39,889 bases of DNA, from positions 1 to 39,889 of IMG/VR virus record IMGVR_UViG_3300043446_003606; one strand, given 5' to 3'. A program made the position numbers and the translations under genes. This DNA is from a virus. Of the stretch, positions 1,797-36,659 are shown in pieces. Under the pieces are notes generated by a model. That model ran no database searches. It was not told the origin of the DNA and saw nothing but the letters and a program-made list of their open reading frames with translations. The number at the start of each line of letters is the position of its first letter. The first letter of the stretch is position 1.

Positions 1797-2120
1797 TTAT
1801 ACCCTAAAACTTTCGCCACAACCACAACGATCTCGCTCGTTGGGATTGGAGAATTCAAAACCTTCATTGAGACCTTGGCGTACATAGTCTACATGGGTAC
1901 CTGACAAGTATACATCATGTTTTTTGTCAACCAGCACACAAAAATCATCCTGTGCATAGTTAATGGTGCTGCTGTCAGGTTCATACTGTTTGACATATTC
2001 TAACACATAAGCCAAGCCTGAGCAACCTGTGGTTTTTATGCCAAGTCTAATGCCTGCATAATTTTTAGATGCAACAAGTTTTTGAATTTTATTTTTTGCA
2101 GCCGGGGAGATTGTGATCAT
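1797..2120 (-). CDS. iscA: A-type Fe-S carrier protein, IscA/HesB family
   Basis: 107 aa, the usual IscA length. The three conserved cysteines are present: Cys33 in TGCSG and Cys99/Cys101 in the C-terminal CGCGESF motif. These bind iron or a [2Fe-2S]/[4Fe-4S] cluster and pass it to apo-proteins. The gene sits directly after the radical SAM enzyme and in the same operon as the scaffold IscU, so it probably delivers clusters made on IscU to phage or host enzymes. A late-like ATTAAATA lies 4 nt before the ATG, overlapping the radical SAM stop codon. SufA/ErpA-type carriers are the alternatives within the family; the exact subfamily cannot be set by eye. Confidence 0.9.
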   Translation of the reverse strand: MITISPAAKNKIQKLVASKNYAGIRLGIKTTGCSGLAYVLEYVKQYEPDSSTINYAQDDFCVLVDKKHDVYLSGTHVDYVRQGLNEGFEFSNPNERDRCGCGESFRV

Positions 2121-2124
2121 TGAG

Positions 2125-2132
2125 TATTTAAT
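2125..2132 (-). promoter_or_regulatory. Late-like octamer ATTAAATA before iscA
   Basis: ATTAAATA ends 4 nt before the iscA ATG and includes the TAA stop of the upstream radical SAM gene. If used it would give a near-leaderless iscA transcript. It may also be chance, since TAA stop codons generate TAAATA easily. Confidence 0.25.
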
Positions 2133-3849
2133 CTGGATTGATCTTTAGATCTTGTAAAAATTCATGCAGCTTAGATGATAGAGTCAATTTGCTAAATTGC
2201 GCCTTGTGCTCAACCGGCACAAAAGGTAACAACCCTTTCAAAAATTTTGGATTCAAAACAAGCTGTTCGTAAAAACTGTCAGACTGGATATTGGCTTCGC
2301 TCTCAAATCCAATTGTGTAAAAGAAATCATTGTTTGCGGTCCAGTTGTGGTATAAGTTTTTGTGTAATAATCCATACTGTTCACTCAGCAACAGATTGTT
2401 TACAGCAACGGTTGCATCTAATGTTTTACACTGATTATGATGCAAAAACAAATTGATCAAAATCACTGCCATGTAAAAATTTCCAATCAAATTCATGGTC
2501 ACTATGTCGTGCTGGTCAAATGACACACATGATTTTGGAATTCGAGATTGAAATCTTTTTGAGTTTTGAAGGCGAGTACTGACCACGTACTCAAAGCCAA
2601 ACTTTTGTTGATATTCAGGATCTAATATTGCAGGACTGGTTGGCAATGGTTCATTGATATTGACTGTGGGCCAAATATTGGCTTTGGCCAAAGTACTCAA
2701 AGTGGTTATTAACGAGTCCGGTGTTTGTCCAGGCAATCCGTAAATGATATGGGATTTAATAATCAAGTGTGGATATTGATTACGCAAATCATTGGCCATA
2801 GACAGATGCACTTCCCAACTGACATCTGGCCGGTCAATGTTTTTTAAAATTTGTGGGTTAATATCTTGGATAGAAAATGTCAGCATACGGTGCACCAATC
2901 CACTTTCTACCATGTGCTTCCACATGTGGTAATTGTTTTGCTTTTGTAGTTTGCTCCAACTGGCTGCTATTTTGAAACCAGCATTTTCATTGATATTTTT
3001 CTTGGCAAAATATTCAATTACATCAAGATCCTCGGCATACTGTCCTGTGTTAGCGTCTGCTATGAAAATATTGGTCAATCCCAACTGTTGAAACAAATCA
3101 ATTTCATCCCGATAGGTATTTTTTCTTCTAGAAACCTTGTTGTCAAAACCGCTGTTCCAGTCACAGAATGTACAGGCATATGGACACCCTCTAGTAATTT
3201 CATAAGGCAACCAAATTGGTCCTGCCTGCTTTTTGGCATCTTTGACCATGCGGGCTAGAAACTCTTTATTTGATAAAAAAATACTGCGTTGATTAATTTT
3301 TACTGGGCGATATCCAGCCACTTGGTTTTTTCCTGTCTTTGCATTTTGCCAAGCACAGTTTGATGTATTAAGTGCAATCAGAGACTTTTGGTTTACAAGA
3401 TGTGCCATGATGTCAGCAAATGCCTGCTCGCCAGCACCATACACAGCGTAATCAATAAAAGGCCACTGGGTAAAAAAATTAGGGTTGTTATGCACATCAA
3501 TACTGGGCCCGCCGGCTATAACAGTCAACCGATTTTTTACTTCTGTGGGAATATTGGCCAATTGATCCAGTAAAAAACTATGATTCCAAATATAATGACT
3601 GACACAAAGCACATCGGCCTTGGTGTATTCAATGTGTTTGACCAAATCTTCTGTGGTCAATTGAAACTGAATAGGCAATAACCATTCCAATTGTTGTGCT
3701 GTGGATTGGTCATGTGAGTCAATCCATGTTTTTAAAACCAAAGCAGTTGGGTAAAGATAGTTTCCAAGATCAATATCACCTGCATGGTAAAATAATATTT
3801 TTAATTTTTCTGACGAGGGCATGATATTGCTCTCAACTGTCTCCAGCAT
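2128..3849 (-). CDS. B12-binding-type radical SAM protein
   Basis: 573 aa from the ATG at 3849; an in-frame TTG two codons earlier overlaps the iscU stop. The N-terminal 150 residues look like a cobalamin-binding Rossmann domain (KILFYHAG at the start, ADVLCVSH, VIAGGP, YGAGEQAF). A radical SAM core follows, with the CxxxCxxC cluster cysteines at 222, 226 and 229 (RGCPYACTFCDW). The architecture is that of the class B / RlmN-unrelated 'B12-radical SAM' group, whose members methylate or rearrange unactivated carbons. The substrate is not evident. It lies between iscU and iscA, so it is a likely client of the phage-encoded Fe-S machinery. Confidence 0.85.
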   Translation of the reverse strand: MLETVESNIMPSSEKLKILFYHAGDIDLGNYLYPTALVLKTWIDSHDQSTAQQLEWLLPIQFQLTTEDLVKHIEYTKADVLCVSHYIWNHSFLLDQLANIPTEVKNRLTVIAGGPSIDVHNNPNFFTQWPFIDYAVYGAGEQAFADIMAHLVNQKSLIALNTSNCAWQNAKTGKNQVAGYRPVKINQRSIFLSNKEFLARMVKDAKKQAGPIWLPYEITRGCPYACTFCDWNSGFDNKVSRRKNTYRDEIDLFQQLGLTNIFIADANTGQYAEDLDVIEYFAKKNINENAGFKIAASWSKLQKQNNYHMWKHMVESGLVHRMLTFSIQDINPQILKNIDRPDVSWEVHLSMANDLRNQYPHLIIKSHIIYGLPGQTPDSLITTLSTLAKANIWPTVNINEPLPTSPAILDPEYQQKFGFEYVVSTRLQNSKRFQSRIPKSCVSFDQHDIVTMNLIGNFYMAVILINLFLHHNQCKTLDATVAVNNLLLSEQYGLLHKNLYHNWTANNDFFYTIGFESEANIQSDSFYEQLVLNPKFLKGLLPFVPVEHKAQFSKLTLSSKLHEFLQDLKINPD

Positions 3850-3851
3850 AA

Positions 3852-4223
3852 TCAATGTTTTTTACGATAGTCTTCTATGGCTGCTCGTATAGCATCTTCA
3901 GCAAGAATAGAACAATGAATCTTGACTGGTGGCAATGCGAGTTCTTGAGCAATCTCTGAATTCGTAAGAGTTGCCGCTTGGTCAAGCGTTCGTCCTTTAA
4001 CCCACTCGGTAACGAGAGAACTGGAGGCAATCGCACTGCCGCATCCGTATGTTTTGAACCTTGCATCTGTGATAATCCCGTTTTCAACTTTGATTTGCAA
4101 TTTCATCACATCGCCACAGGCTGGTGCACCTACCATGCCAGTGCCAATGGTGTCGTCGATTTCAAACTTGCCCACATTGCGTGGATTTTCATAGTGATCA
4201 ATTACTTTTTCTGAATAGGCCAT
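3852..4223 (-). CDS. iscU: Fe-S cluster assembly scaffold IscU
   Basis: 123 aa, very close to bacterial IscU throughout. All working parts are visible: Cys36, Asp38, Cys61 and Cys104 ligate the nascent [2Fe-2S] cluster, and LPPVK (97-101) is the site recognised by the Hsp70 chaperone HscA. It should therefore work with host IscS, HscA and HscB, which are not encoded here. The start has a GAAGGAA ribosome site and lies downstream of a consensus sigma-70 promoter. The C-terminal DYRKKH resembles betaproteobacterial IscU, which suggests acquisition from a proteobacterial host. A complete scaffold gene in a phage is unusual. Confidence 0.95.
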   Translation of the reverse strand: MAYSEKVIDHYENPRNVGKFEIDDTIGTGMVGAPACGDVMKLQIKVENGIITDARFKTYGCGSAIASSSLVTEWVKGRTLDQAATLTNSEIAQELALPPVKIHCSILAEDAIRAAIEDYRKKH

Positions 4224-11770: not shown

Positions 11771-13471
11771 ATGACAGACTTAGAACAAATTGAAGCACTG
11801 CTAAAACAATTCCGCAGACCTTGTCCACAAACAGAACAATACACCAACAGACTCACAGAAGAATTTGAAGTAATCATCAGTCAGAGATTCACCGAATACT
11901 TTTTAAAAATACGCCGAGTATTGGATCTCAACTCAGACATTCCCCACATGACACGAGGATCAGCAGGCTCCAGCCTGGTGTGTTATCTCATGGGCATCAC
12001 AGATGTTGATCCCATAGAGTGGAATATACCATTTGCTAGATTTCTCAATCCACTCAGAGACGACTTGCCGGACGTGGACATTGATGTGCCGCATCACAGT
12101 CAAGAAAGAGCCATGCAGAGAATCTTTGATGCTTGGCCTGGCAAAACAGCCCGCATATCAAACTATGTGCTGTACAAAGAAAAGTCCGCACGTCGAGAAG
12201 CAGCCCGCAGATTAGGTGCCAAAGGCAAACTGCCCCGAGACTTTGACTACAAGACCTTGGGCATAGATGAAACCGAAGCCCGACGCATCGAAAAGAAACT
12301 CATGGGCAAAACACGCTGCCTGTCAAAACACTGTGGTGGGGTCATAGTGTTTGATCGCAAACTACCACAAAGTTTGTTTCGTGAAGACAATCTCATCTTG
12401 CTGGACAAAAACGAAGTGGAAGATCTAGAACATCTCAAAGTGGACATCCTGGCCAATCGTGGTCTCAGCCAACTCATGGAGATTGATCCCACCCGCATGG
12501 TACATGAATATCCCTTAGAAGACGAAGCCACTGCTGACCTGCTTGCACGTGGTGATGTGCTGGGAGTCACACAAGGCGAAAGCCCAGCCATGCGCCGACT
12601 GTTCCGAGCCATAAAACCCACGTCTGTGGCCGACTGTGTGTTTGCCACTGCACTGGTTCGTCCTGTGGCCATGGAAGGTCGACGCAAGGCCTCATGGTTC
12701 CGTGACTGGACAGCAGATGGAGCCAAAGAACGTGCCATTGTGTGCGAGGATGATGCCATAGAGCGTATCATGAAACTGATTGGTGTCAATGCCTACGAAG
12801 CCGACATGTATCGGCGAGCATTTGCCAAAAAGAACGAAGAAAAAGTCATGGAGTTCATGACACGCCTGGGCGACCATCCCTTGAAAGAAGAGATCTATCA
12901 GGAGATGTTGAACCTGTCAGGCTTTGGCCTGTGTCGTGCTCATGCTGTAAATCTTGGCAGGCTGATCTGGGCACTGGCCTATAACAAGGCCCACAATCCT
13001 CGCGAGTTCTGGCGAGCAGCTCTCATGCACTGCCAAGGTAGTTATGCACGTTGGGTATATAGAAACGAAGCCAAACGTGCCGGTTGGGATCTGCGTGAAC
13101 TGGGATTTGATAACTGGATCATGGAAGATCCTGTGTCAGCATTCAAACAACACGGTGCATGGAACACTCCAGGATTCCTGCCCAACATGGGTGTGCGCGG
13201 CCTGTACATGGACCGCTATGAGTTTGCTGGCATAGTGGCCAACAGCCGTGTGTTCAAGCGAGACAAGAACCGCTACATACACTTTATCACCCTGGGCGTG
13301 GGTGAAGGTGAATATGTGGATCTCATTGTGGATCGACCCATCAAGTATGCCAACTCATCGGTGATTGTGGGGCAGGGTGAGATACGCAGTCGAGATGGAT
13401 CACAGTTCTTACAGGTAGATCGAGGCAATGTCAGTGCCATGGCCATTGACGATTATCTCAGCCTGTCTTGA
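11771..13471 (+). CDS. DnaE-like family C DNA polymerase core (no PHP domain)
   Basis: 566 aa, half the length of bacterial DnaE. It aligns by eye with the palm of DNA polymerase III alpha: RGSAGSS (62-68, DnaE PGRGSGAGS), ITDVDP..WN..FARFLNP (76-94), PDVDIDV (100-106) with catalytic Asp103/Asp105, KHCGGVIV (187-193), LKVDILANRGL (222-232) with the third catalytic Asp225, LVRPV (295-299), and SGFGLCRAHAV (383-393, DnaE YgFNKSHA). The C-terminus (about 480-550) looks like the OB fold. The N-terminal PHP/exonuclease and C-terminal tau-binding regions are missing. Activity is plausible because all three Asp are kept. Its 3' end overlaps the convergent helicase gene by 14 nt. Confidence 0.8.
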   Translation: MTDLEQIEALLKQFRRPCPQTEQYTNRLTEEFEVIISQRFTEYFLKIRRVLDLNSDIPHMTRGSAGSSLVCYLMGITDVDPIEWNIPFARFLNPLRDDLPDVDIDVPHHSQERAMQRIFDAWPGKTARISNYVLYKEKSARREAARRLGAKGKLPRDFDYKTLGIDETEARRIEKKLMGKTRCLSKHCGGVIVFDRKLPQSLFREDNLILLDKNEVEDLEHLKVDILANRGLSQLMEIDPTRMVHEYPLEDEATADLLARGDVLGVTQGESPAMRRLFRAIKPTSVADCVFATALVRPVAMEGRRKASWFRDWTADGAKERAIVCEDDAIERIMKLIGVNAYEADMYRRAFAKKNEEKVMEFMTRLGDHPLKEEIYQEMLNLSGFGLCRAHAVNLGRLIWALAYNKAHNPREFWRAALMHCQGSYARWVYRNEAKRAGWDLRELGFDNWIMEDPVSAFKQHGAWNTPGFLPNMGVRGLYMDRYEFAGIVANSRVFKRDKNRYIHFITLGVGEGEYVDLIVDRPIKYANSSVIVGQGEIRSRDGSQFLQVDRGNVSAMAIDDYLSLS

Positions 13472-14864
13472 TCTTGCCCAACAACTGTTTCAACTTGGCT
13501 GACTGCACATCTGCTGATATTTTTCCTGGCTCGTCGGCTGTGACTGCGGAAGGCTCTTCACTAGTAATCTGGCTCTTGGCCTTGATTGATTCATAGATGC
13601 TGGGCGCCCGTTTGCGGAATTCTTGATAATCCGGATCTTCGGCAAGGTCAGTAATGCGCATGGTTTCAATGTTGTACTCCAAATCAATTTTTTGACCAAC
13701 GCCGGTCGAGCTTCGAGACTTCATACATTGTATCTGATACTTGCCACGCTCTTTCATGGCACGGCTAGTAAAGATACCAAACACATTGTCTGCTGTGTTG
13801 ATTTTAGATATACCACCTGAAATGTGGCTGTGATCAAATTCTACTTCTTCCACTGCTGATCTATTCAACTGTGAAGCAGTGACCATGAGTATCTGCAATT
13901 CTTTGGCCAGGTTGCGCAGTTCTTCTGACACATACTTGTCTTTGACAAACAGGTCATTGGGACTGACTTTTGCACTCACAGGCATCAGCAAGTCCAAATA
14001 ATCAATCATCACAAAGTCCACACGTCGACCTGTCTGTATCTGATACTCTTTCAAGTATGCACGTATGTCATTGATGTTGCTCTGTGCTGGCAAACCCTTG
14101 ACCTGATAGTTGCCGGCTTTTTTGGCCACCAACTTGACCTTGAGTTCAGTGGTGTCCATGTCCTTGCGTATTTCTTTGGTGCTCATGTTTGTGAGCATGG
14201 CATCCGTACGCAAACTGGTGAGTTCCTCACTCAACTCCAATGTGATGTACACCCCACTGAGTCCGGCCTGTAACCAGTTTAGTGCAATGTTCATCATAAC
14301 CAAAGATTTACCCGAACCAGATCCACCGGCAAAGATATTGAGTTCACCACGACTGAATCCACCATACAGCAGACGATCCATCTGTGGCCAACCTGTTGAC
14401 ACCTGTCCACCTGAGTTGAAATACTTTTCAATTCGGCTTCGAGGATCAGCAAAGTAGTCTGTGCCCATGTCCTTGGTCAATGATATCTGCACAGCATCTT
14501 TGATCAGTTTCTCCACAGGTTCAAAGTCACCTTTTTCCAACATGTCTGCGGCTTTGAGAATAGCACGTTCCAGTTCTTGACGCTTGGTAAACTGTTCAAA
14601 CTCTGCCATGAACCACTCAAAGTGTCCTTCGTTCAAGTCTGGCACCGGTTGTAATTTGATGCTGGTGGCCGCTGAGATCTGTGTGCGTTCGGGCATGGTC
14701 TTGAATTTGTCTGAGTGTTCTTTGATGAACTCAGCCGCAGGCCGCAAACTCTTGTCAAAGTTCTGCGGGTTGTAGATGTTCTGCACACGCACATAGCTCT
14801 GTGCATCTTCCAACATCATTTCTAGAAATAATCGTTGAACGTCAAGTCCGTATTCTTTTAACAA
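13458..14864 (-). CDS. Replicative DNA helicase, T4 gp41 / DnaB family
   Basis: 468 aa, close to T4 gp41 (475 aa). The RecA-like motor shows Walker A FAGGSGSGKS (178-187), VYITLELSEE (205-214), Walker B FVMIDYLDLL (284-293) and a VTASQLNRSA sensor segment. The N-terminal 150 residues are the helical hexamer collar. The protein moves 5'-3' on the lagging strand and works with the primase encoded immediately upstream, which it overlaps by 23 nt. The tail after 430 is low complexity. The 3' end overlaps the opposing DnaE-like gene. Confidence 0.92.
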   Translation of the reverse strand: MLKEYGLDVQRLFLEMMLEDAQSYVRVQNIYNPQNFDKSLRPAAEFIKEHSDKFKTMPERTQISAATSIKLQPVPDLNEGHFEWFMAEFEQFTKRQELERAILKAADMLEKGDFEPVEKLIKDAVQISLTKDMGTDYFADPRSRIEKYFNSGGQVSTGWPQMDRLLYGGFSRGELNIFAGGSGSGKSLVMMNIALNWLQAGLSGVYITLELSEELTSLRTDAMLTNMSTKEIRKDMDTTELKVKLVAKKAGNYQVKGLPAQSNINDIRAYLKEYQIQTGRRVDFVMIDYLDLLMPVSAKVSPNDLFVKDKYVSEELRNLAKELQILMVTASQLNRSAVEEVEFDHSHISGGISKINTADNVFGIFTSRAMKERGKYQIQCMKSRSSTGVGQKIDLEYNIETMRITDLAEDPDYQEFRKRAPSIYESIKAKSQITSEEPSAVTADEPGKISADVQSAKLKQLLGKIKTG

Positions 14865-15831
14865 GTGCTTTTTTCCTTAGTTCAATTTTGATTCTGCTGG
14901 TTTCTCGCGATTGCATTATAGTTAGCAGAGCTCCAAGTTTACCCAACTTTATCACTGCATCGTTGACGTCTTTGCAACCCTCGGGCCATGTAGGTATGCT
15001 CACCGCCCATCCCAGTTCCACAGCACGATCAATCAGTTCAACACCGGCTGTGTCTTGATCTGGTACCACTGTGATTTCCCGACCAAGGCTGCGTATCAAT
15101 CTTGCCTGTAGATCACTTATGGTGTTGTGCATCACTGCAAGGCCACCTATGCTGAGTGCATCAAATATACCTTCGGTCACAATCACATGCTGCCAGTCGT
15201 CATGCTGTAGGTCTGTACCAAACACATAGCCGGGTTGACTGTGGCTAATGAACTTGGGCTGTTTTCCATCTAGCATCCTGGCAGTGAATCCCACCATGAC
15301 ATTGTTGTAGGTAAACGGTATAATCACCTGTGGGCGAGTCCAGTGAATGCCATCGTTCTGTATGGCAGTGAGCACAGGAAAATCTTCAGGCACATGTCTA
15401 ATACGCAAATAGTTCCACTGTATTGTTTGTTCAGGTGTGACTAGTTCTGCAAATGGCGGCAAGTCGTCAAACTCACCAAATTGAATGTCGCTGATGGCAT
15501 TCCATGTTTGCTGCCGTTCGTTCAGTATGCCATGTATGCTTCGATGCCTCAGGCTTTCCAATCCCAGCATTTCTATTTCTACTTCTGGCACACCCATCCA
15601 ACCCAGCAGTCGGCGTGTTTTGAATGTTACACTGCGACCCAGGATAAAACTGGCTGTGTATGAGCAGTTGAAACAATGATAACTCCAGCCCTGGTCAGAC
15701 GCTTTGAGTCCACCACGCCCTCTTGTGTCTCGTGTTGATCCATTGTGTTGACAACACACTGCATTAAAACTCAACCAGCCTGAAGGTGTTTGTTTACGTT
15801 TGGCAGGCAGATAAGCAAGGATGTCAAGCAT
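14842..15831 (-). CDS. DNA primase, T4 gp61 type
   Basis: 329 aa (T4 gp61 is 342). The zinc-binding element has Cys26/Cys27, His29, Cys53 and Cys56 (CFNC). The TOPRIM domain shows Glu220 in VTEGIFDAL and Asp258/Asp260 in VPDQDTAG, the metal-binding residues for RNA primer synthesis. It pairs with the gp41-type helicase to form the primosome. The start is the ATG at 15831, only 6 nt after a TATACT -10 element with no ribosome site in between, so the mRNA may be leaderless. Confidence 0.92.
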   Translation of the reverse strand: MLDILAYLPAKRKQTPSGWLSFNAVCCQHNGSTRDTRGRGGLKASDQGWSYHCFNCSYTASFILGRSVTFKTRRLLGWMGVPEVEIEMLGLESLRHRSIHGILNERQQTWNAISDIQFGEFDDLPPFAELVTPEQTIQWNYLRIRHVPEDFPVLTAIQNDGIHWTRPQVIIPFTYNNVMVGFTARMLDGKQPKFISHSQPGYVFGTDLQHDDWQHVIVTEGIFDALSIGGLAVMHNTISDLQARLIRSLGREITVVPDQDTAGVELIDRAVELGWAVSIPTWPEGCKDVNDAVIKLGKLGALLTIMQSRETSRIKIELRKKALVKRIRT

Positions 15832-16964: not shown

Positions 16965-16972
16965 TATTTATG
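16965..16972 (-). promoter_or_regulatory. Late promoter CATAAATA
   Basis: It lies just upstream of the 359-aa structural gene on the minus strand. The same bases include the ATG of the divergent 125-aa plus-strand gene, so the two genes share a 20-nt gap. Confidence 0.6.
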
Positions 16973-17347
16973 GGTAACAACATCTTTGAAAAACTGGCAG
17001 AAAAATACCCGTTTATAACACTGTGCGTGTACGCAAACAATGAATATATCGGTATAGTACAAAATAAAGATGATGCTGTTACGACTATCTACGACTTTGG
17101 TGCTGTGATAACACAAGAAGACAAACTAGAATTCTTGGAGTTGGCCAATACATGGTGGTGGGAGAGCAATCGTAGCATACCCATCAACATATTCTTGCGT
17201 GGTGACTGGGACAAGTTTCGTTCAACTCTGCGCACATTTTCCAACAAAGATCTAGAAATCCTCCATGGCCCTGTGTGCAGTTTGATAGATATTGCTCGCA
17301 AAAAAAACAAACGCAAATCAATTACCTTGGTCCGCCGTATTGAGTAA
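16970..17347 (+). CDS. Conserved T4-like hypothetical protein
   Basis: 125 aa, mixed alpha/beta, with conserved-looking blocks YIGIVQNKDDAVTTIYDFG, WWWESNR, INIFLR and FSNKDLEILHGPV, ending in basic residues. I recall close relatives in T4-like cyanophages, always without a function. It starts 20 nt from the divergent structural gene and has no strong ribosome site. It runs convergently into the miniature DnaE-like gene, overlapping its 3' end by 30 nt. Confidence 0.65.
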   Translation: MGNNIFEKLAEKYPFITLCVYANNEYIGIVQNKDDAVTTIYDFGAVITQEDKLEFLELANTWWWESNRSIPINIFLRGDWDKFRSTLRTFSNKDLEILHGPVCSLIDIARKKNKRKSITLVRRIE

Positions 17348-17896
17348 GTTCATATGCAGTGCAACTAATGCTGCATAGGAAATCGCATGACTCTTTTTAA
17401 ACGTATACCCACGCGATTCGTCCCCATCCCATACTGACGCAAACACTTCTGCCCAGGGTTTTCTTTGCAAGTGTGCCTTGCCTGGACGAATAATACTGAT
17501 AAAAGCAGCCATTCTAGGTATTGAGTCAGGTTTCATCACTGCCAACAAATCTATATAATTGCCCACGTGTACCAGTTGCGCAGCCCAGGCTGGATCTGTC
17601 CACAGTCGACTCCATGGGGGTGTTGCTGACAACATCTCTTCATAGTGTTCAGGATCGCGAATCAACTGATACACACTCATGTTCAGCAAGTCAATTTTGA
17701 AATAGCCACGCTGTTCTGCTGACTCATAGTCAATGGCAGCACAGCCATGCTCAATGTCTTGCGGAATATCTGTGATATAGATACCAGAATTGTGCCGGCG
17801 TACCCGACCATCCACCACTTGTCTGGCAGGTGTGTGATGGATCAGTTCTAGTATTCGACTGCGATCCGGGACGTCAATGTCAATGTCTGCACTCAT
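17318..17896 (-). CDS. Miniature DnaE-like protein
   Basis: 192 aa. It carries, in order, the same motifs as the 566-aa DnaE-like protein with the spacers removed: ADIDIDVP (3-10; Asp4/6/8), RHNSGIYITD (34-43), YFKIDLLN (65-72; third Asp69), IIRPGK (135-140) and YTFKKSHAISYA (164-175). These correspond to PDxDxD, KxGG, FDFLGL, RPG and FNKSHA of DNA polymerase III alpha. The RGS palm segment, fingers insertions, PHP and OB fold are absent, so polymerase activity is doubtful. Similar short proteins occur in T4-like marine phages, as I recall. It overlaps the upstream gene by 4 nt. Confidence 0.7.
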   Translation of the reverse strand: MSADIDIDVPDRSRILELIHHTPARQVVDGRVRRHNSGIYITDIPQDIEHGCAAIDYESAEQRGYFKIDLLNMSVYQLIRDPEHYEEMLSATPPWSRLWTDPAWAAQLVHVGNYIDLLAVMKPDSIPRMAAFISIIRPGKAHLQRKPWAEVFASVWDGDESRGYTFKKSHAISYAALVALHMNLLNTADQGN

Positions 17897-18235: not shown

Positions 18236-18925
18236 TTACCATCCTGCCTGTTTCAATATTTCTCGTGCATACTCTGTGTCAGCGGCATAGTCTGAAAACC
18301 TCTTCTGCCACACATCTGAATCTATGTAAGGCCATATCATGGTCACTTGGTCAGCGGTGAGTTCACTCAAAAACTTCTGTCCTGACTCTGAATTGTATAT
18401 CACCCATGGACTGATGCGTCCTGTGGTGACAGCATAGCACATGGCATGCGGGCTGCCGTATCTCAAACAGTCATTGGCAGCGGCTGAATGCTGTTCGGCC
18501 CAGTCTATGCCAAACTCCACTGCTCGTGCCAAGGCATCTTGCACTGCTTCTACCTGCAAATAATACAACAAGTATTCTGTGTACAGTTGATCTGACGCCC
18601 AGCGATCAATCTTTTTGTTGTGTTTCAGCAGCCACTCCAGGAACTGTCGAGGATTGATCACTCTGGTGGCAAAGCAGTACCTACCAAATTTTACAAAAGC
18701 CTTGTAGTAAGGTGAGTCAGCAAAGTCATCAAATGTTTTTAACTTTGCACTGCCTTGTGCTATTTCATAAAATCTAATGTAGGCATGAAAGCCCAGTTCA
18801 ACACCACGTTCGTTGCGTTCACTGCGTCTGCGTTTGGGTTCACACATGTGCACAGCCATGCTTTCTGGCCGTTTGAAAGTCTTGTGACAGAAGCCACAAG
18901 TGAGTTCACTTAGTGTCTCGGCCAT
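18236..18925 (-). CDS. Conserved T4-like protein with N-terminal C2HC zinc finger
   Basis: 229 aa. Residues 10-28 form a zinc-finger-like element (CGFCHKTFKRPESMAVHMC: Cys10, Cys13, His26, Cys28), followed by a basic stretch. The rest is helical with conserved-looking blocks (FVKFGRYC, WLLKHNKKIDRW, RYGSPHAMCYAVTTGRISPWVIYN). I recall strong relatives across T4-like cyanophages without an assigned role. The zinc finger, and its place between the gp62-like and DnaE-like genes, suggests nucleic-acid binding in replication or transcription. It overlaps the gp62-like gene by 20 nt. Confidence 0.65.
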   Translation of the reverse strand: MAETLSELTCGFCHKTFKRPESMAVHMCEPKRRRSERNERGVELGFHAYIRFYEIAQGSAKLKTFDDFADSPYYKAFVKFGRYCFATRVINPRQFLEWLLKHNKKIDRWASDQLYTEYLLYYLQVEAVQDALARAVEFGIDWAEQHSAAANDCLRYGSPHAMCYAVTTGRISPWVIYNSESGQKFLSELTADQVTMIWPYIDSDVWQKRFSDYAADTEYAREILKQAGW

Positions 18926-20297: not shown

Positions 20298-20326
20298 ATA
20301 ATATAGTTTTTTGTGACAAATGTCAA
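20298..20326 (-). promoter_or_regulatory. Sigma-70-type promoter giving a leaderless mRNA
   Basis: TTGACA (20321-20326), exactly 17 nt, TATTAT (20298-20303); the ATG at 20291 follows after 6 nt. The predicted start site is at or next to the initiation codon. Confidence 0.75.
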
Positions 20327-21792
20327 CCTAATTTCATCCAGTCTAGTTTCTCTTGTGTGAAAGGATAGTTGGCTTCCTTGTAGAACTGTTTGCGCTTGGT
20401 CAAATGACGCTTGGCAAACTTACAGGTGGATGTCACGTCCCAGATTTCCACATGGTCTTTATCTTCCGCTTTTCTAATACCACGACCAATGCTTTGGATG
20501 ACTCTAACAAAGCTCTTGCCAGGTTCAACAAGCACAAGATTAAAAATTCTAGGAATATTAATACCCACGGCAGCCACGCCATAGGTAGCCACAATAATTT
20601 TATCAGTTGATTCAGATACTTCATCATATTCTGCCTGTCGTTTTGATCCCTTGGTAGCACCTGACACAAACACAGCCCGATCTCCCAGCCGTTCAACCAA
20701 GGCCTGCCCGGCTGCCACACGGTCTACCAGCACCAGGGTGTTACCGGTTTCGTTCACTCGCCGCACAAGATCTGCCATGGTGTCCAGGCGTCCAGATTCC
20801 TCCAACAAGTATTTGAGTTCGCTTTGATAGTCCTTGTACTCCACATGATCAATCAACTGCACAATGTTCACATGACAGTTGGCCAACACACCCTGTTGTT
20901 GCAGTTCATTTGCGCTAAGTCGGCCAATCACAGGACCCAGGCTCACCAACAGTGCTTGGCTTTCAAATTTCTCTTTGGGCACTGTTCCGGTCAAACCCCA
21001 GCGAATTGGCACTCTGGCCATCACGCCTGTGAGCAAGGTTTTCAGTGCATCTGCCTTGGCCATGTGCACTTCGTCCACAATAACACACACCACATCTTCC
21101 AAGAACTCACCAATGGTGCAGTCGCCTACACCAGCCTTGGTGTTCTTCAGCAGGTTGTTGAGACTCTGCCATGTGCATATGGTGTGCTGACGTCCGTATT
21201 CTTTTCTGTCGCCAAAGTACACACCAACATCCTGTTGCATGTTGATGTAGTCGGCTTCGGTTTGTGTCACAAGACTCTTGTTGGGCACAATCACAATGCT
21301 ACGTCCATAGGGTGTGACTGCATTGCTCAGGGCCGCTGTCATAATGGTCTTGCCTGCGCCTGTGGCCACTTCCTGTATGCACTGTGGATTGGCCAGGAAG
21401 TTGTTGATGATTTCCACTTGATAGTCACGTAGGGCAATGGGTTCACCTGCGGCTGGATGTGTTCTAGGCCATGACACATGTGCAAATGATGTTTCTGTCA
21501 CAGGCTCAAAGTTGAATGTGTTTGAGTAGTCACGCTGATCATCCAAGTCAACGTCGTAGTCAAAACGTTCCAAGATGGGCAGGATCTCTGGCAGTAGATT
21601 CACATAAGTTGACCCGCCCAATTGGAAGTATGCTACCTTGCCATCCCAGCGTCCCAGTCGCACTGCTGGCAAATAACGTGCGGCAGGGTTTTCATATTTG
21701 AAAGCGTTTACCAGAGCCTTGCGAACATTCAAGTCCAGGCCTTCGATCTTGATGTTGACTTCGTCACGTATTTGTATGGTACAGCATTTCAT
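20323..21792 (-). CDS. uvsW: UvsW-type recombination helicase (SF2)
   Basis: 489 aa (T4 UvsW 503). An N-terminal double-stranded-DNA-binding domain (about 1-100) is followed by helicase motifs: a Q-like RDYQVEI (122-128), Walker A ATGAGKT (143-149), DEVH box (240-243), GLTGTVPKE motif III and an IQSIGRGIRK motif VI. UvsW unwinds R-loops and branched intermediates and shifts replication from origin- to recombination-dependent initiation in T4. Its end overlaps the promoter of the 166-aa gene by 4 nt. The 5' end overlaps the 294-aa gene. Confidence 0.93.
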   Translation of the reverse strand: MKCCTIQIRDEVNIKIEGLDLNVRKALVNAFKYENPAARYLPAVRLGRWDGKVAYFQLGGSTYVNLLPEILPILERFDYDVDLDDQRDYSNTFNFEPVTETSFAHVSWPRTHPAAGEPIALRDYQVEIINNFLANPQCIQEVATGAGKTIMTAALSNAVTPYGRSIVIVPNKSLVTQTEADYINMQQDVGVYFGDRKEYGRQHTICTWQSLNNLLKNTKAGVGDCTIGEFLEDVVCVIVDEVHMAKADALKTLLTGVMARVPIRWGLTGTVPKEKFESQALLVSLGPVIGRLSANELQQQGVLANCHVNIVQLIDHVEYKDYQSELKYLLEESGRLDTMADLVRRVNETGNTLVLVDRVAAGQALVERLGDRAVFVSGATKGSKRQAEYDEVSESTDKIIVATYGVAAVGINIPRIFNLVLVEPGKSFVRVIQSIGRGIRKAEDKDHVEIWDVTSTCKFAKRHLTKRKQFYKEANYPFTQEKLDWMKLG

Positions 21793-31136: not shown

Positions 31137-31818
31137 TTTGTGTTCTTTGCTGACAGTGGTCAGTTAGTGTTCGTTCATGATGCCATTCTTCTGCCTGCGG
31201 GGTGTCATGAAATTCATCAAAGCATGGAGTGCCCAAGGTATAATGTAAGAGCTTGGCGTCGGGGTTTGGCCCGTATTCATCAGGCAACCAATTCCATTCT
31301 TTGGGAAGTTCGCCAATGCGTTCATCATTTAACCAGGTAAATCTATGCAGTTCAGCTCCTGTGGATTTTTGCACAAACTCTGGCGTGAGTTTGCGATTGG
31401 GGAAACTGTTACAGTTCCATAAAATCACACTGCTCCAGTTTTTTCTTGGATAGTCTTCATTCTTGCTGCCAAGATACTTTTCAGTCATGCATGTTTTGTA
31501 GTCGTGTTTGACCACCATGACATCTTTGAGAGAGTCTCTCAAATCCCACAGTTCCACAATATCGCCACGCAGGATCATGTCACCGTCAATGAATATGGCC
31601 CATCCCGAATACCCCATTAAATGTGGAACAAGAAACCGTGTGTAGATAAAGTGATTGCTGCCATCAGTGTGTGTTTCGTCGTAGTCTCGAAACAAGTTCA
31701 AGGCCACAGGAATTATGGCCACTGGTTGACTGGCATGTCTAATGATTGAGTTTACACACACATGATAGGCAATGGCTTCTCTAGGATCGTAGCCCACAAA
31801 CACAGGAATGGGTTTCAT
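31129..31818 (-). CDS. Glycosyltransferase family 8-like
   Basis: 229 aa. The N-terminus PVFVGYDPREAIAYHVCVNSI is typical of GT8-like enzymes (GYD.RE). YTRFLVPHLMGYSGWAIFIDGDMIL holds metal-binding D78-G-D80; WSSVILWNC (about 128-136) and a C-terminal LLHYTLGTPCF complete the set. It should add a hexose to an acceptor glycan. It overlaps the upstream cytidylyltransferase gene by 4 nt and the downstream KpsS-like gene by 8 nt. Confidence 0.82.
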   Translation of the reverse strand: MKPIPVFVGYDPREAIAYHVCVNSIIRHASQPVAIIPVALNLFRDYDETHTDGSNHFIYTRFLVPHLMGYSGWAIFIDGDMILRGDIVELWDLRDSLKDVMVVKHDYKTCMTEKYLGSKNEDYPRKNWSSVILWNCNSFPNRKLTPEFVQKSTGAELHRFTWLNDERIGELPKEWNWLPDEYGPNPDAKLLHYTLGTPCFDEFHDTPQAEEWHHERTLTDHCQQRTQNE

Positions 31819-32579
31819 CGGCGTACAATGTCTTCCTCAACACAGCGTTCACCGTATTGGATTTCAATCAACTTCAGTGGCTGATCAGTTTCATTGCACA
31901 GTTGGTGCCACTCATTCACACGAATAAATGTGTGTTCATGCATGGTCAGTTCACACCGGACTTCTTGATCTGTTGATGCTTCGTCCAAGGTATACACCGT
32001 GGCTTCGCCCTGGGCCACAAACCAGAACTCTGCACGACTGTCATGGCGTTGCATGCTCAGGCATTGACGGGGCATGACAGTGAGTTCTTTGAGTTTGGTA
32101 TTCTCACCCACTTCATGCAGCACACGATAGTATCCCCAGGCACGTTCGGTGCGGGGTGATTTCCATTCTGTCAGTATCCATGAACTAGAATTCTTTTTGT
32201 CCTCGCCGCCTACACCAAACACAAACGCAAGATTGTTGTCCATTACATCCATTTCGGGAATATTTGCAGAAGTTCTATCGCCGCCATTGGCAAAAATCAA
32301 TTCTGCTGTGGGGTAGTGTGCTCGCACCTGTTGTATAAAATGTCTGGCCGAACCGTCTTCGTCGTCAAATGTATAAACCTCATCAACCATGCTGAGATTG
32401 TTGACCACGCACAGTCGTTCATTCCAGGGCATGAAAGCACGGCCTTTTTTGCGTGTGAGCCATTCATCGCTGTTGAGTCCCACTATCAACCGGTCGCCCA
32501 AGGCCCGAGCTGCTTTAAAATAGGCAATGTGCCCGCTGTGAATGGGGTCAAACCCGCCAGTAACTAATATAATTTTCAT
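31815..32579 (-). CDS. Cytidylyltransferase fused to a cupin (PMI-like) domain
   Basis: 254 aa from the ATG at 32579; a longer in-frame start would enter the upstream gene. The N-terminal domain (1-140) is a nucleotidyltransferase: GGFDPIHSGH (8-17, HxGH motif) and N-E-R-L near 53, like TagD/HldE-C. The C-terminal domain (about 145-254) is a cupin of the mannose-6-phosphate isomerase type II kind, with His179, Glu184 and His225 as likely metal ligands. The pair would activate a sugar- or polyol-phosphate and process a related sugar. A TGTAAATA octamer sits 5 nt before the ATG. Confidence 0.75.
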   Translation of the reverse strand: MKIILVTGGFDPIHSGHIAYFKAARALGDRLIVGLNSDEWLTRKKGRAFMPWNERLCVVNNLSMVDEVYTFDDEDGSARHFIQQVRAHYPTAELIFANGGDRTSANIPEMDVMDNNLAFVFGVGGEDKKNSSSWILTEWKSPRTERAWGYYRVLHEVGENTKLKELTVMPRQCLSMQRHDSRAEFWFVAQGEATVYTLDEASTDQEVRCELTMHEHTFIRVNEWHQLCNETDQPLKLIEIQYGERCVEEDIVRR

Positions 32580-32584
32580 GCAGG

Positions 32585-32592
32585 TATTTACA
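32585..32592 (-). promoter_or_regulatory. Late-type octamer TGTAAATA, leaderless arrangement
   Basis: It is followed by 5 nt and the ATG at 32579, identical in layout to 25807-25814. It overlaps the 3' end of the UvsY-like gene. Confidence 0.55.
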
Positions 32593-33040
32593 CCTGGATA
32601 TCTTCCATACCTGCAGTTCTCAGTCGCACCACGTGACCCATTTGCCACTGTTTAGTATCTAGGCCTTTCATGATGCCCAGCCAGCGATTGCGTAACAAGG
32701 CCACTTCGTTGATGATAGTTTCAAAGTCAATGACTTCATCTTCGCCATCCACGTACTTTTCAGCATCACGTGCTGTGAGTGCTCGAGCGTAACCTTCTAG
32801 ATATTTTTTGAAATGTCGGGTACGTATCTTGCGTAGTTGAATGTTGAGATAGTTCAACACAGCCTCTATCTCTTGCAGTTGATTGAACCTGTGTTCTGTG
32901 ATGCCTGGCAAGGCCGTGATGTTCTTTTCCACCACGCCGCCAATACGGCAATCACGCTTGGCTTCATTCAGCTCATTGTCATAGTGAGCAATGAAGTCAG
33001 GTATATTGCCTAAATCTGCTACAACTTTACTGTACCACAT
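32588..33040 (-). CDS. Conserved T4-like protein, possible UvsY homologue
   Basis: 150 aa, helical and basic. Blocks: MWYSKVVADLGNIPDF, ITALPGITEHRFNQLQEIEAVLNYLN, KYLEGYARALTARDAEKYVDGEDEV, and IMKGLDTKQWQMGHVVRLRTAGMED. The last resembles the end of T4 UvsY (ALDAIKSRGFAIKHIQDM). UvsY loads UvsX onto gp32-coated ssDNA, and this gene is in the same transcript as uvsX and gp32. The match is weak and by eye. Relatives in cyanophages are, as I recall, often unnamed. It overlaps the upstream radical SAM gene by 14 nt. Confidence 0.6.
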   Translation of the reverse strand: MWYSKVVADLGNIPDFIAHYDNELNEAKRDCRIGGVVEKNITALPGITEHRFNQLQEIEAVLNYLNIQLRKIRTRHFKKYLEGYARALTARDAEKYVDGEDEVIDFETIINEVALLRNRWLGIMKGLDTKQWQMGHVVRLRTAGMEDIQV

Positions 33041-34208
33041 GTATGTCTAGCCAATCTAAAAACGTTTTTGGAAAGATACTTAAATCTAAATTTCGCCTTG
33101 ACGAAAACTCTTGCAAAAACGTTGCTAAATTTTTTTGATCAATTGGTGATACTTCAAAATTAGATTTTAACAAGTCTATTAGAATTTTAAATTGTTGATT
33201 GTTTTGTTTGTCTAACACTTCTAGTAGATTGTATTTTGAATCTTTGTCCATTTTTTGTACTTCAAGAAATTCAGGCATAACACACAAATTTTCTTCTATC
33301 TCAGCATTGATAAAATTGACAAAATCAACGTATCCAAATGCGGTTAGATTGCTGAGTGTAGAATAAAATTGATACTTGATTCCTGATGTTTTTACATAAT
33401 CTAACAATTCTACCAAATGATCAAAAGAATATCCGTAACGGTTAAATTCATGGAGTTTGCCGATATTCTCTGCGCTGATCCCTAATTTAAAACTTGGATA
33501 ATCTCGCAGTTGATCAATTAATCTTGTAAATTTGTTTTTAGGTATACCAAGACCGGTCATTACAGTGAAGACAGAACTTGGATTGCTTAGTTTTATAAGA
33601 TCAAGCACTTGTGTCTCATACAACAAAGTCTCACCACCAGTGACGTACCAAACTTTTATTTTTTTTGCATGTTCGATCAAATGCCTATACAGTGTTTGAA
33701 ACTTTGAACTTGAATATATGTCATTTTGTTTTAGCTTTTTAAACAATAAATTTTCAGTGCTCAGTGCATAGGATGGTCTAGAATTTTCAAAATTATACTT
33801 GCCATTTTTTTCAATATCATCAGACCAGGCACGGCTAAACATAGGCCCACAGTACGAACAAGTAAGGGTACAGCGATTGCCTAGCGAAATATTAACTTGT
33901 TCTAAATTATCAATCTGAGCTGATTGGTGAGTTTTCTCTGCTCCGCCATTGATTGATCTAATGCTAGGCAATCCAGCATCCTCGTTTTTCCAACACGGTT
34001 TTTCACAGGACAAAACACGAGTATTGGACAGCATCTGCTCGCGCTCGTTGCGTATAACTGATAAATTCAATAACCCATTTTTTTCTAAGTCAACAAAATC
34101 AATTTTGTAGGGGGAGGCACCACAACATGCTGATATAGATGAATTTTGAAATGTCAACGATAATTCAGTAAATTTCCTAGAACAATAATAATTCCGATCA
34201 GTAGTCAT
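33027..34208 (-). CDS. Radical SAM protein with N-terminal accessory cysteines
   Basis: 393 aa from the ATG at 34208, which overlaps the stop of the acidic protein gene by 11 nt; the longer start is in a Lys-rich shadow. Cluster cysteines C113, C117 and C120 (CTLTCSYCG) bind the SAM-cleaving [4Fe-4S]; WYVTGGETLL is the GGE motif. Cys28/29 and Cys68/72 precede the core, an inverted twitch-like arrangement shared with the proteins at 35502 and 37667. Substrate unknown. Its A/T-rich sequence differs from the surrounding core genes, consistent with acquisition. Confidence 0.82.
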   Translation of the reverse strand: MTTDRNYYCSRKFTELSLTFQNSSISACCGASPYKIDFVDLEKNGLLNLSVIRNEREQMLSNTRVLSCEKPCWKNEDAGLPSIRSINGGAEKTHQSAQIDNLEQVNISLGNRCTLTCSYCGPMFSRAWSDDIEKNGKYNFENSRPSYALSTENLLFKKLKQNDIYSSSKFQTLYRHLIEHAKKIKVWYVTGGETLLYETQVLDLIKLSNPSSVFTVMTGLGIPKNKFTRLIDQLRDYPSFKLGISAENIGKLHEFNRYGYSFDHLVELLDYVKTSGIKYQFYSTLSNLTAFGYVDFVNFINAEIEENLCVMPEFLEVQKMDKDSKYNLLEVLDKQNNQQFKILIDLLKSNFEVSPIDQKNLATFLQEFSSRRNLDLSIFPKTFLDWLDIHVVQ

Positions 34209-34461
34209 CTTCTTGATTGTAGTTGTCCTCGTCATCAAACTCTTCTTCTTCCTCTTCGGCATAGTCTTTGTCATTGTCTAGGTATGCTGTAAGAGCTTTC
34301 TTGATGTCTGAATCACCTTTGAAGGCGTCTCGAATCTCGTCTACATCATGATCATGATCGATCAAGATGGCCACAATGCTTTCGGCAGCATCCATACGGT
34401 CTACCACGTTGACATATCGTTTTAGTTCGCCCCAAATTTCGCTTGCTACTTCTGCTGACAT
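34198..34461 (-). CDS. Small acidic conserved protein next to uvsX
   Basis: 87 aa. Residues 1-60 form a helical domain (EIWGELKRYVNVVDRMDAAESIVAILIDHDHDVDEIRDAF, split into two helices). The tail after 65 is nearly all Asp/Glu (EEEEEEFDDEDN). Similar proteins sit beside uvsX in T4-like cyanophages, as I recall. An acidic tail could mimic DNA or bind basic partners such as a recombination mediator. Its ATG is 1 nt after the uvsX stop, with GGAGGA as ribosome site. Confidence 0.65.
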   Translation of the reverse strand: MSAEVASEIWGELKRYVNVVDRMDAAESIVAILIDHDHDVDEIRDAFKGDSDIKKALTAYLDNDKDYAEEEEEEFDDEDNYNQEDDY

Positions 34462-34462
34462 A

Positions 34463-35518
34463 TTATTCCTCCACAGTTTCGGCAGTACTTATTTCAATTC
34501 GTTGATTTTGAAAATCTACCATGACTTTGTCCAAGCAACCATCTTCATTGCTTTCCCAGGCCTTGCGGAACAGTTTGATTACTTCGCCATCTGACGTGGT
34601 AAATGCCAATCTGTTGCCTTCTTTTTTCAACAGGCCTTTTTTCTCAGCCAAGTCTACCAAGCCTGAGTATGGGTTCATACCTGTTTCGTAAGGGATTTTG
34701 ACCTGTACACCTTCAAAGGGTTTGGCATAGCGTGTTTTCATGACCTTGCAAGCTGAGCGAATGCCCATGACATCAGAAATTTTGTTGCCATCTTCGTCCT
34801 CTTTGAGCTTGAGTTTTTTCATGGCTACAACAATTGAGCTGGCATAAATGAACCCTTGGCCGCCGGAGATTTTGTCATCTGGGTCAAACATGTCCTGGCT
34901 TGCATAAGTGTGGTTGGTACATACCAAGCCTACATTGTATGAACCAAACATGTTGACACAGTTACGTACCAGTGCTGTCAACGCCTTGGGTTTACGACCA
35001 AGGTCACCCTTCATTTCGCCAGCATCAAATTGATTAACATCTGTGGGAGTCAACAACATACCCAGTGAGTCGATCACAAACATGACCTTGGGACGTTCGC
35101 CATCAGGCAAGGCCTTGTAGTCACTCATGAATGTTGATATTGTTTTTGCTACGTCATCAATCATGGCCATTGACAGTTTGAGCAGTTTGCTTTCTGATGT
35201 GTCCACGCCCAAAGCCTTGAGCCAGTCTTCGTCCAAGGCATTCTCTGAATCAATCAGCACCACAAAGATACCTTGTTGTTGTGCGTTCTTGATGATGTTG
35301 CCAGAACAGATGTAACTCTTGCCTGCACCTGATTCTCCAGCAAATACAGTGACTTTTCCCAGGGGGATGCCGCGATTGAAGTCGCCTGAGATCAGGTAAT
35401 TCAAGGCGTAATTGCCTGTTGAAATCCAGTCTGTGGGATCGTTAAAGCCAATGCTGAGTCCATCAATGCTTTTGGTGATTTCCTTGCGGAACTTGCTTAC
35501 GTCAAATGGTTTTCCCAT
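34463..35518 (-). CDS. uvsX: UvsX recombinase (RecA family)
   Basis: 351 aa, near T4 UvsX (391). Walker A GESGAGKS (61-68), LIDSENALDEDWL (Walker-A-associated Glu), VMFVIDSLGML (Walker B) and VCTNHTYA, as in T4-like UvsX. It forms filaments on ssDNA coated by gp32 and drives strand exchange and recombination-dependent replication. It overlaps the radical SAM gene upstream by 17 nt and sits in one transcript with gp32. Confidence 0.95.
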   Translation of the reverse strand: MGKPFDVSKFRKEITKSIDGLSIGFNDPTDWISTGNYALNYLISGDFNRGIPLGKVTVFAGESGAGKSYICSGNIIKNAQQQGIFVVLIDSENALDEDWLKALGVDTSESKLLKLSMAMIDDVAKTISTFMSDYKALPDGERPKVMFVIDSLGMLLTPTDVNQFDAGEMKGDLGRKPKALTALVRNCVNMFGSYNVGLVCTNHTYASQDMFDPDDKISGGQGFIYASSIVVAMKKLKLKEDEDGNKISDVMGIRSACKVMKTRYAKPFEGVQVKIPYETGMNPYSGLVDLAEKKGLLKKEGNRLAFTTSDGEVIKLFRKAWESNEDGCLDKVMVDFQNQRIEISTAETVEE

Positions 35519-36659
35519 GATTTTCTTCCTTGTATAAATTTCTAAAAATTGTTCTGCTGTCTAATTTACGTCGTTGATCCATGTCTGCTATTTTTTCAAA
35601 TGCCCCTTGCAAATTTTTAACAAATGGCTGATCTAAATGTGTCAACATGTTTTGATAGCTATTTTCCAATAGGTACCCAGGTTGTTTGCTAATCCGATCT
35701 AATAGAATTTTCTTCACTGAGTTTAACACATTTTCTGGCAAATGTCTAATATTTAGGTATTCTGGCTTGGTCAGAGCACCAATTATAAAACTGTTGTTGT
35801 GAAAACCCTGTGATTTTAAAAAATCCACACAATCAAAAATACTGATATGGTTCAATAAGAAGTGCAACATGTTGAATGATATTTTATGATCAAACTGTTT
35901 AATTGTGCGCAAGTTATTCAAAAACTCTTGCCATGTTCCACCATATCTAATATATTCAAACTCCTGATCCATGCTTTCTACACTCACAGTCCAGTGTACA
36001 TTTTTGAACTCACTGATTAAATCAAAAATATGTGTATCCACATGGCTTAAATTGGTGTTTATTCTCAAGTTAACTTCGGGGTTAACTTGTTTCAACAACT
36101 GTAAAAATTCTAAATTTTCTTTCATCAGCAGGGGCTCACCACCAGCCAGATACACATGTTTTAATTGTGCAGCACGGTCAAAAATATATTGTTTGAATTT
36201 TTGTTTTTTTACATCTTCAGGGGTATTGATTACAATGTTTAGTTCGCTGGCCCACTTACTGCTAAAATCTGGACTGCAATACACACAGGAAAAATTACAA
36301 AGATTGCTCCAACGTATGTCTACAGTGTGCAAATCAAAGTTTGTGGTATCATACAAAGTGTTGTCAACTCCACGCAGTTCTTTGAGATAAAACACACGGT
36401 CACTTATAATGTTAAACCTGTTTTGTTGTTGTTCTAATTCATAACACGGATTACATCGGGAAAACTTTTTTCCTGATTGCATGTCCTCTTTGATTAAATC
36501 ATCTTGCCTGAGTATTTCCTCTATGCTGCTGTTGTTGATATTGCCAATTGGGTCAGCACTGCGGATACAGTTTTTTATCGTGCCATCAAAATTGTACATA
36601 ATACTGGTCCAGGGCACAGGACAAAATGCACGATTAGTCAAGTATTTTTTACGGTCCAT
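35502..36659 (-). CDS. Radical SAM protein with N-terminal accessory cysteines
   Basis: 385 aa. Core cysteines C121, C125 and C128 (CNFSCVYC), followed by a YLAGGEPLL motif near 165. Before the core lie Cys13 (FCPVPW), Cys31, Cys69 and Cys72 (CNPC), suited to an auxiliary Fe-S cluster. FCPVPWTSIMYNFDGTIKNC is typical of the 'twitch' radical SAM family in marine phages and bacteria, although those often modify peptides. It overlaps the SDR gene by 11 nt and uvsX by 17 nt. Substrate unknown. Confidence 0.85.
   Translation of the reverse strand: MDRKKYLTNRAFCPVPWTSIMYNFDGTIKNCIRSADPIGNINNSSIEEILRQDDLIKEDMQSGKKFSRCNPCYELEQQQNRFNIISDRVFYLKELRGVDNTLYDTTNFDLHTVDIRWSNLCNFSCVYCSPDFSSKWASELNIVINTPEDVKKQKFKQYIFDRAAQLKHVYLAGGEPLLMKENLEFLQLLKQVNPEVNLRINTNLSHVDTHIFDLISEFKNVHWTVSVESMDQEFEYIRYGGTWQEFLNNLRTIKQFDHKISFNMLHFLLNHISIFDCVDFLKSQGFHNNSFIIGALTKPEYLNIRHLPENVLNSVKKILLDRISKQPGYLLENSYQNMLTHLDQPFVKNLQGAFEKIADMDQRRKLDSRTIFRNLYKEENHGKTI

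Follow-up and report, generated by a model that had tools for sequence, protein, structure and literature searches.

Can a protein of 192 amino acids (aa) be a DNA polymerase? The question is raised by IMG/VR virus record IMGVR_UViG_3300043446_003606, of which positions 1 to 39,889 (39,889 nucleotides, here called the window) encode a 192-aa protein with the motifs of the alpha subunit of DNA polymerase III (Pol III), or C family, and also a 566-aa protein of the same family. A first-pass annotation took the small protein for a miniature of the large one with everything between the motifs trimmed out, an interpretation that is partly supported. We conclude with high confidence that the 192-aa protein is instead the C-terminal, metal- and template-binding half (C-half) of a minimal Pol III alpha encoded by two genes. 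The other half (N-half), which bears the GRGS segment, is encoded elsewhere.

The open reading frame (ORF) of the 192-aa protein begins with ATG, and its start and the stop codon of the preceding gene share four bases (ATGA). As had been noticed in the first pass, its five motifs, DIDID (residues 4-8), HNSG (35-38), YFKIDLL (65-71), RPGK (137-140) and FKKSHA (166-171), follow the order found in the 566-aa protein and in E. coli DnaE. The gene and its motifs lie in the window as follows.

17318-17896, minus strand: 192-aa protein, very probably the C-half of a two-gene minimal Pol III alpha (PHROG 11778, alignment, AlphaFold2/Foldseek)
17873-17887, minus strand: DIDID, with D4/D6/D8 equivalent to D401/D403/D405 of E. 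coli DnaE (PDB profile alignment and E. coli numbering)
17783-17794, minus strand: HNSG, equivalent to HAGG of E. coli DnaE (alignment)
17690-17698, minus strand: K67-x-D69, equivalent to E. coli K553/D555, D69 being the third catalytic Asp (invariant in a 59-row alignment)
17477-17488, minus strand: RPGK, equivalent to the RPGP motif of DnaE (alignment and PDB profile alignment)
17387-17401, minus strand: FKKSH (residues 166-170), equivalent to the FNKSH motif of DnaE (alignment and PDB profile alignment)

The E. coli residues D401, D403, D405, K553 and D555 were read directly from the E. coli sequence. Their equivalents D4, D6, D8, K67 and D69, together with the arginine of the RP motif, are invariant in the 59-row alignment of diverse C-halves, so that the 192-aa protein has counterparts of all three catalytic Asp residues (D401, D403, and D555) and of K553. 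It matches PHROG 11778, which is labelled DNA polymerase, at 3.8e-53. When the profile of its family is run against decoys (340 shuffled sequences, 17 reversed sequences, and 486 unrelated ORFs), ranks 1-12 are all genuine C-family polymerases, ahead of every decoy. The first-pass claim that the protein is derived from family C and keeps the catalytic Asp residues is therefore upheld, and profile searches place it in no unrelated family. No Pfam match lies above the cut-off; the Pfam anticodon domain of methionyl-tRNA ligase, at 0.0045 and below the cut-off, was dismissed. Judged from the sequence, this is a genuine ORF of the Pol III alpha family that encodes only half of an enzyme. The 192-aa chain holds no PHP, HhH/OB, or clamp-binding C-terminal sequence, and the GRGS nucleotide-binding segment is not in it. 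What it has is what a C-terminal subunit of a split Pol III alpha should have, namely the Mg-binding Asp residues and the template-binding part in a separate protein.

The GRGS segment is found in a second protein. A search with PF07733 of genomes that carry a C-half finds a distant second short ORF in all six isolates and in most of the large contigs, and this ORF matches only model positions ~19-97. The encoded N-half (~172 aa, PHROG 11127) bears the GRGS segment and ends shortly beyond it, as in the example WGVGRGSSVASYVLFLIGVHKVDSLKYNLDIKEFLK-stop; other C-termini are of the kind KYNLDIKEFLK-stop. In related genomes its gene is at least 11 kb from the C-half gene. The position of the break is nearly constant. 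The stop comes exactly 29 residues past GRGS in 86 of 89 N-halves and at 30 or 31 in the remaining three. On the other side, the nearest upstream Met of the C-half lies 1-6 residues ahead of DxDxD in all but a handful, some annotated starts being a little farther upstream, and DxDxD is retained in all 164 distinct C-half sequences with a readable start. When profiles are searched against PDB chains, the N-half aligns with residues 351-392 of E. coli DnaE, and the C-half begins at residue 399. The break thus falls between the GS segment and the Asp residues of the polymerase-beta-type nucleotidyltransferase site, and neither chain has a complete active site. Among the fetched loci (the best 80 per scan) there is no ORF in which the two halves are fused.

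The predicted structures agree with this division. AlphaFold2 models have a predicted local distance difference test (pLDDT) score of 91.2 for the C-half of the window and 88.7 for the N-half of a relative. In Foldseek searches of the PDB, the first 14 matches of the C-half and the first eight of the N-half are without exception Pol III alpha/PolC chains, and the probability for the C-half, still 0.54 at rank 14, is 0.02 at the next rank.

The two halves also travel together. The C-half is found in 90 INPHARED records, nearly all of them jumbo phages (RaK2, 121Q, GAP32, CBB, PA5oct, Atu_ph07, and Phosso groups), and in hundreds of IMG/VR contigs. Isolates with a C-half are jumbo phages of ~285-490 kb plus one 141-kb phage, a distribution different from the wide occurrence in T4-like phages that had been suggested. 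INPHARED counts by host genus are nearly equal for the two halves. In a panel of records picked for holding one half or a 566-like protein, a choice on which the co-occurrence counts are conditional, both halves are present in 21 of the 23 large records, those of 180 kb or more. Both are encoded by Stenotrophomonas phage RAS14 and by the 141-kb Alishewanella phage Slicko01, and the latter shows that the split enzyme also occurs outside the jumbo phages. Among GTDB genome contigs there are 12 matches. Each comes from a metagenome or uncultured assembly, the taxa are unrelated, and none is in an isolate genome; these are probably mis-binned phage contigs. A DnaQ-type proofreading partner was also considered. 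An exonuclease-family match occurs in several isolates but in just one of 13 IMG/VR records tested, so a DnaQ-type protein is no constant partner.

A family B DNA polymerase (PolB) is found in nearly all large genomes with the split pair. None is seen in the 39.9-kb window, which is a fragment, and no scan for PolB was made of its own record. In several of the phages NC_042013.1, PP408249.1, and OQ508956.1 the PolB match lies in two separate frames, and in Slicko01 it is in two open frames of 578 and 322 aa. PolB may be interrupted or split in those phages too.

Some observations weigh against a two-gene enzyme. The leading Foldseek E-values are only 0.003-0.09 for the C-half and 0.35-1.2 for the N-half, so that the structural matches support the assignment and do not prove it; their strength is in their consistency and in no single score. 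No N-half is found within the window, which is itself a fragment, and the pair is therefore inferred for this phage from its relatives. Two records, G032 and G033, have an N-half but no C-half, and the 220-kb record G008 has a C-half but no N-half. G008 also has no PolB, as expected of a fragment, and none of the three is known to be complete.

Of the other explanations, the one that survives best is that the pair is a catalytically inactive remnant of a polymerase with a structural or regulatory function. In its favour, the pair has lost the clamp-binding region, the greater part of the thumb, and much of the fingers, and a PolB replicase is encoded as well. Catalytic residues, however, are usually the first to go in inactive derivatives of polymerases. 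Here neither the catalytic Asp residues nor the equivalent of K553 nor the arginine of RP varies over the 59 diverse rows, and the 164 distinct sequences retain the forms of the motifs, which makes an inactive remnant unlikely.

The 566-aa protein offers another possibility, since the first-pass annotation saw in the two proteins either a core with its accessory or an ancestor with its descendant.

11771-13471, plus strand: 566-aa single-chain, PHP-less C-family polymerase core (PF07733 1.2e-41, PF17657 5.7e-15)

Large and small C-family proteins do occur together, with catalytic Asp residues conserved: of the 30 566-like loci whose downstream sequence extends for 6 kb or more, 28 have a C-half 3.6-8.8 kb away. 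This synteny speaks for a partnership. The 566-aa protein, however, is a full core. It matches E. coli DnaE 315-788 at 1e-43 in a PDB profile search and has the motifs DVDID, HCGG, LKVDIL, RPV, and CRAHA as well as its own GRGS segment. Most genomes with the pair have no such protein: of the 21 large records that encode the pair, only G013 has a 566-like protein. Conversely, the uncultured 484-kb phage LR756508.1 has a 566-like core (47382-49016, 38% identical) and neither half. Because the 192-aa protein is half of a two-gene enzyme, its natural partner is the N-half and not the 566-aa protein.

Nor is descent of one from the other evident. The likeness of their motifs was said to exceed chance, and this stands as homology within the family. 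The direct match is weak (BLASTP E-value 0.007; profile-profile E-value 0.0016, probability 16%), and the C-half profile scores the 566-aa protein of the window no higher than the best shuffled decoy. Taken with the strong ranking of C-family polymerases, this means homology to the C family at large and not to the 566-aa neighbour. Mean identity over shared blocks is 29% between the split form and the 566 family and 32% between the split form and ordinary DnaE. In a tree of 126 columns, which is unrooted and with its long branches cannot be rooted, the split rows form one clade (support 100/99) and the 566 and DnaE rows form separate clades. The 566 clade lies between the other two, and an unstarred branch that joins it with the split form has support 87/88, as descent might predict. 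In this tree the split form is of single origin, and the split and 566 groups may have a reduced ancestor in common. Partnership or direct descent is on balance distinctly improbable; the 566-aa protein is a separate one-piece enzyme, neither the missing partner half nor a demonstrable ancestor.

That the 192-aa protein acts alone as a complete minimal polymerase or nucleotidyltransferase is still harder to maintain. It retains the catalytic Asp residues, the K553 equivalent, RP, and FKKSH, and its single-chain model is confident (pLDDT 91). But the chain has no GS-bearing segment, without which a Pol beta-type site is incomplete, and the same genomes encode that segment in a protein of its own whose end corresponds to the break; we regard independent action as very improbable. 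Splicing of the halves by a split intein can be put aside almost entirely: the trans-splicing DnaE of cyanobacteria, with split genes whose products are joined by inteins, is the best known divided Pol III alpha, but its break is at another place in DnaE, no intein sequence is found at the junction in 89 N-halves and 164 C-halves, and there is no space for intein segments because N-halves end 29-31 residues past GRGS, no more than 1-3 residues from EFL, and each C-half starts just a few residues before DxDxD.

If the two-gene reading is right, the N- and C-halves would associate non-covalently, without an intein, into one polymerase. The assembled enzyme, of ~365 residues, with little of the thumb and with neither PHP nor the clamp-binding C-terminal region, would be active and would serve as an auxiliary to the family-B replicase of the phage. 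Where it might work is suggested by the neighbouring genes, whose counts are taken over loci with room for the neighbour in question.

13458-14864, minus strand: DnaB-like replicative helicase (PHROG 19, PF03796), 57/57 loci
14842-15831, minus strand: DNA primase (PHROG 47), 115/115 loci
16970-17347, plus strand: convergent 125-aa ORF, function unknown (PHROG 11637), on the opposite strand in 177/177 loci
18236-18925, minus strand: 229-aa protein, possibly with a C2H2 finger (zf-C2H2, below the Pfam cut-off), 178/179 loci
20323-21792, minus strand: UvsW-like helicase (PHROG 16), 94/96 loci

The N-half gene lies upstream of a Cpn10-like gene (74/75) and of a clamp-loader ATPase gene (62/63). 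The constant gene order around each half indicates that the halves belong to two conserved replication clusters. Because the split genes sit in a primase/helicase/UvsW cluster and a clamp-loader cluster, the most plausible role would be primer extension at the primase-helicase or recombination-linked repair. The 125-aa ORF overlaps the C-half gene of the window tail to tail by 30 bases, and an overlap of this ORF with the 3' end of the C-half gene is frequent across loci.

The 566-aa protein would then be a third, independent polymerase core in one piece. In G013 (328 kb) the N-half (141686-142150), the C-half (232737-233288), a 566-like protein (226246-227931), and PolB are all present. Because this record holds all four genes, it can be suggested, as a tentative reading only, that one phage lineage runs three replicative-type polymerases with divided labour (e.g., primer extension, bulk synthesis, and repair): PolB, the two-gene Pol III alpha core, and the one-piece 566-aa core. 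No description of this combination was found in a literature search limited to open-access papers.

The short relatives were thought to be unexplained. A split minimal Pol III alpha has, however, already been described in group 2.2 jumbo phages by Iyer et al. 2021 (PMC7824862), who consider that the minimal form may resemble ancestral Pol III, and the N-half was noted earlier as a truncated Pol III alpha in the CBB phage paper (PMC5259590). The enzyme discussed here resembles that of Iyer et al. in its phage groups and in its co-occurrence with a family B polymerase. Beyond their description, the break is fixed to the residue and constant across 89 N-halves and 164 C-halves, the non-jumbo phage Slicko01 has the split form, and in the lineage of the window it coexists with the single-chain 566-aa core. 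PHROG 11778 and PHROG 11127 are both labelled DNA polymerase without being stated to be halves of one enzyme. The split form shares with E. coli DnaE the motifs DxDxD, HxxG, KxD, RP, and F-K-SH in order, a matching fold, and an N-half equivalent to residues 351-392, with ~30% identity over shared blocks. Unlike DnaE, it is in two chains, has no PHP or C-terminal region, and has thumb and fingers mostly trimmed. Single-chain phage DnaE-like polymerases (those of Streptomyces phage Nabi and Cronobacter phage Ss1, and the 566-aa protein of the window) have the C-family catalytic core in common with it, but they carry their own GRGS in the one chain and fall in clades apart.

Some other genes of the window are outside this subject.

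1797-4223, minus strand: Fe-S assembly set of adjoining IscA-like (PF01521), B12-binding radical SAM, and NifU/IscU-like (PF01592) genes
31815-32648, minus strand: single protein with a cytidylyltransferase-like domain and a cupin/mannose-6-phosphate isomerase C-terminal domain
33027-36659, minus strand: UvsX-like recombinase gene flanked by two more radical SAM proteins, of which one matches SPASM

In this family of phage proteins one active site is divided over two genes at a fixed point, and the division has been retained across many phages and hosts. The split enzyme is therefore a natural test of the minimal size and the modularity of a C-family polymerase. The constant break, the apparent single origin, and the lack of a fused form in the fetched sequences make the suggestion of an ancestral Pol III testable. 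A one-piece core beside the split form in the same genome provides an internal comparison of split and unsplit enzymes.
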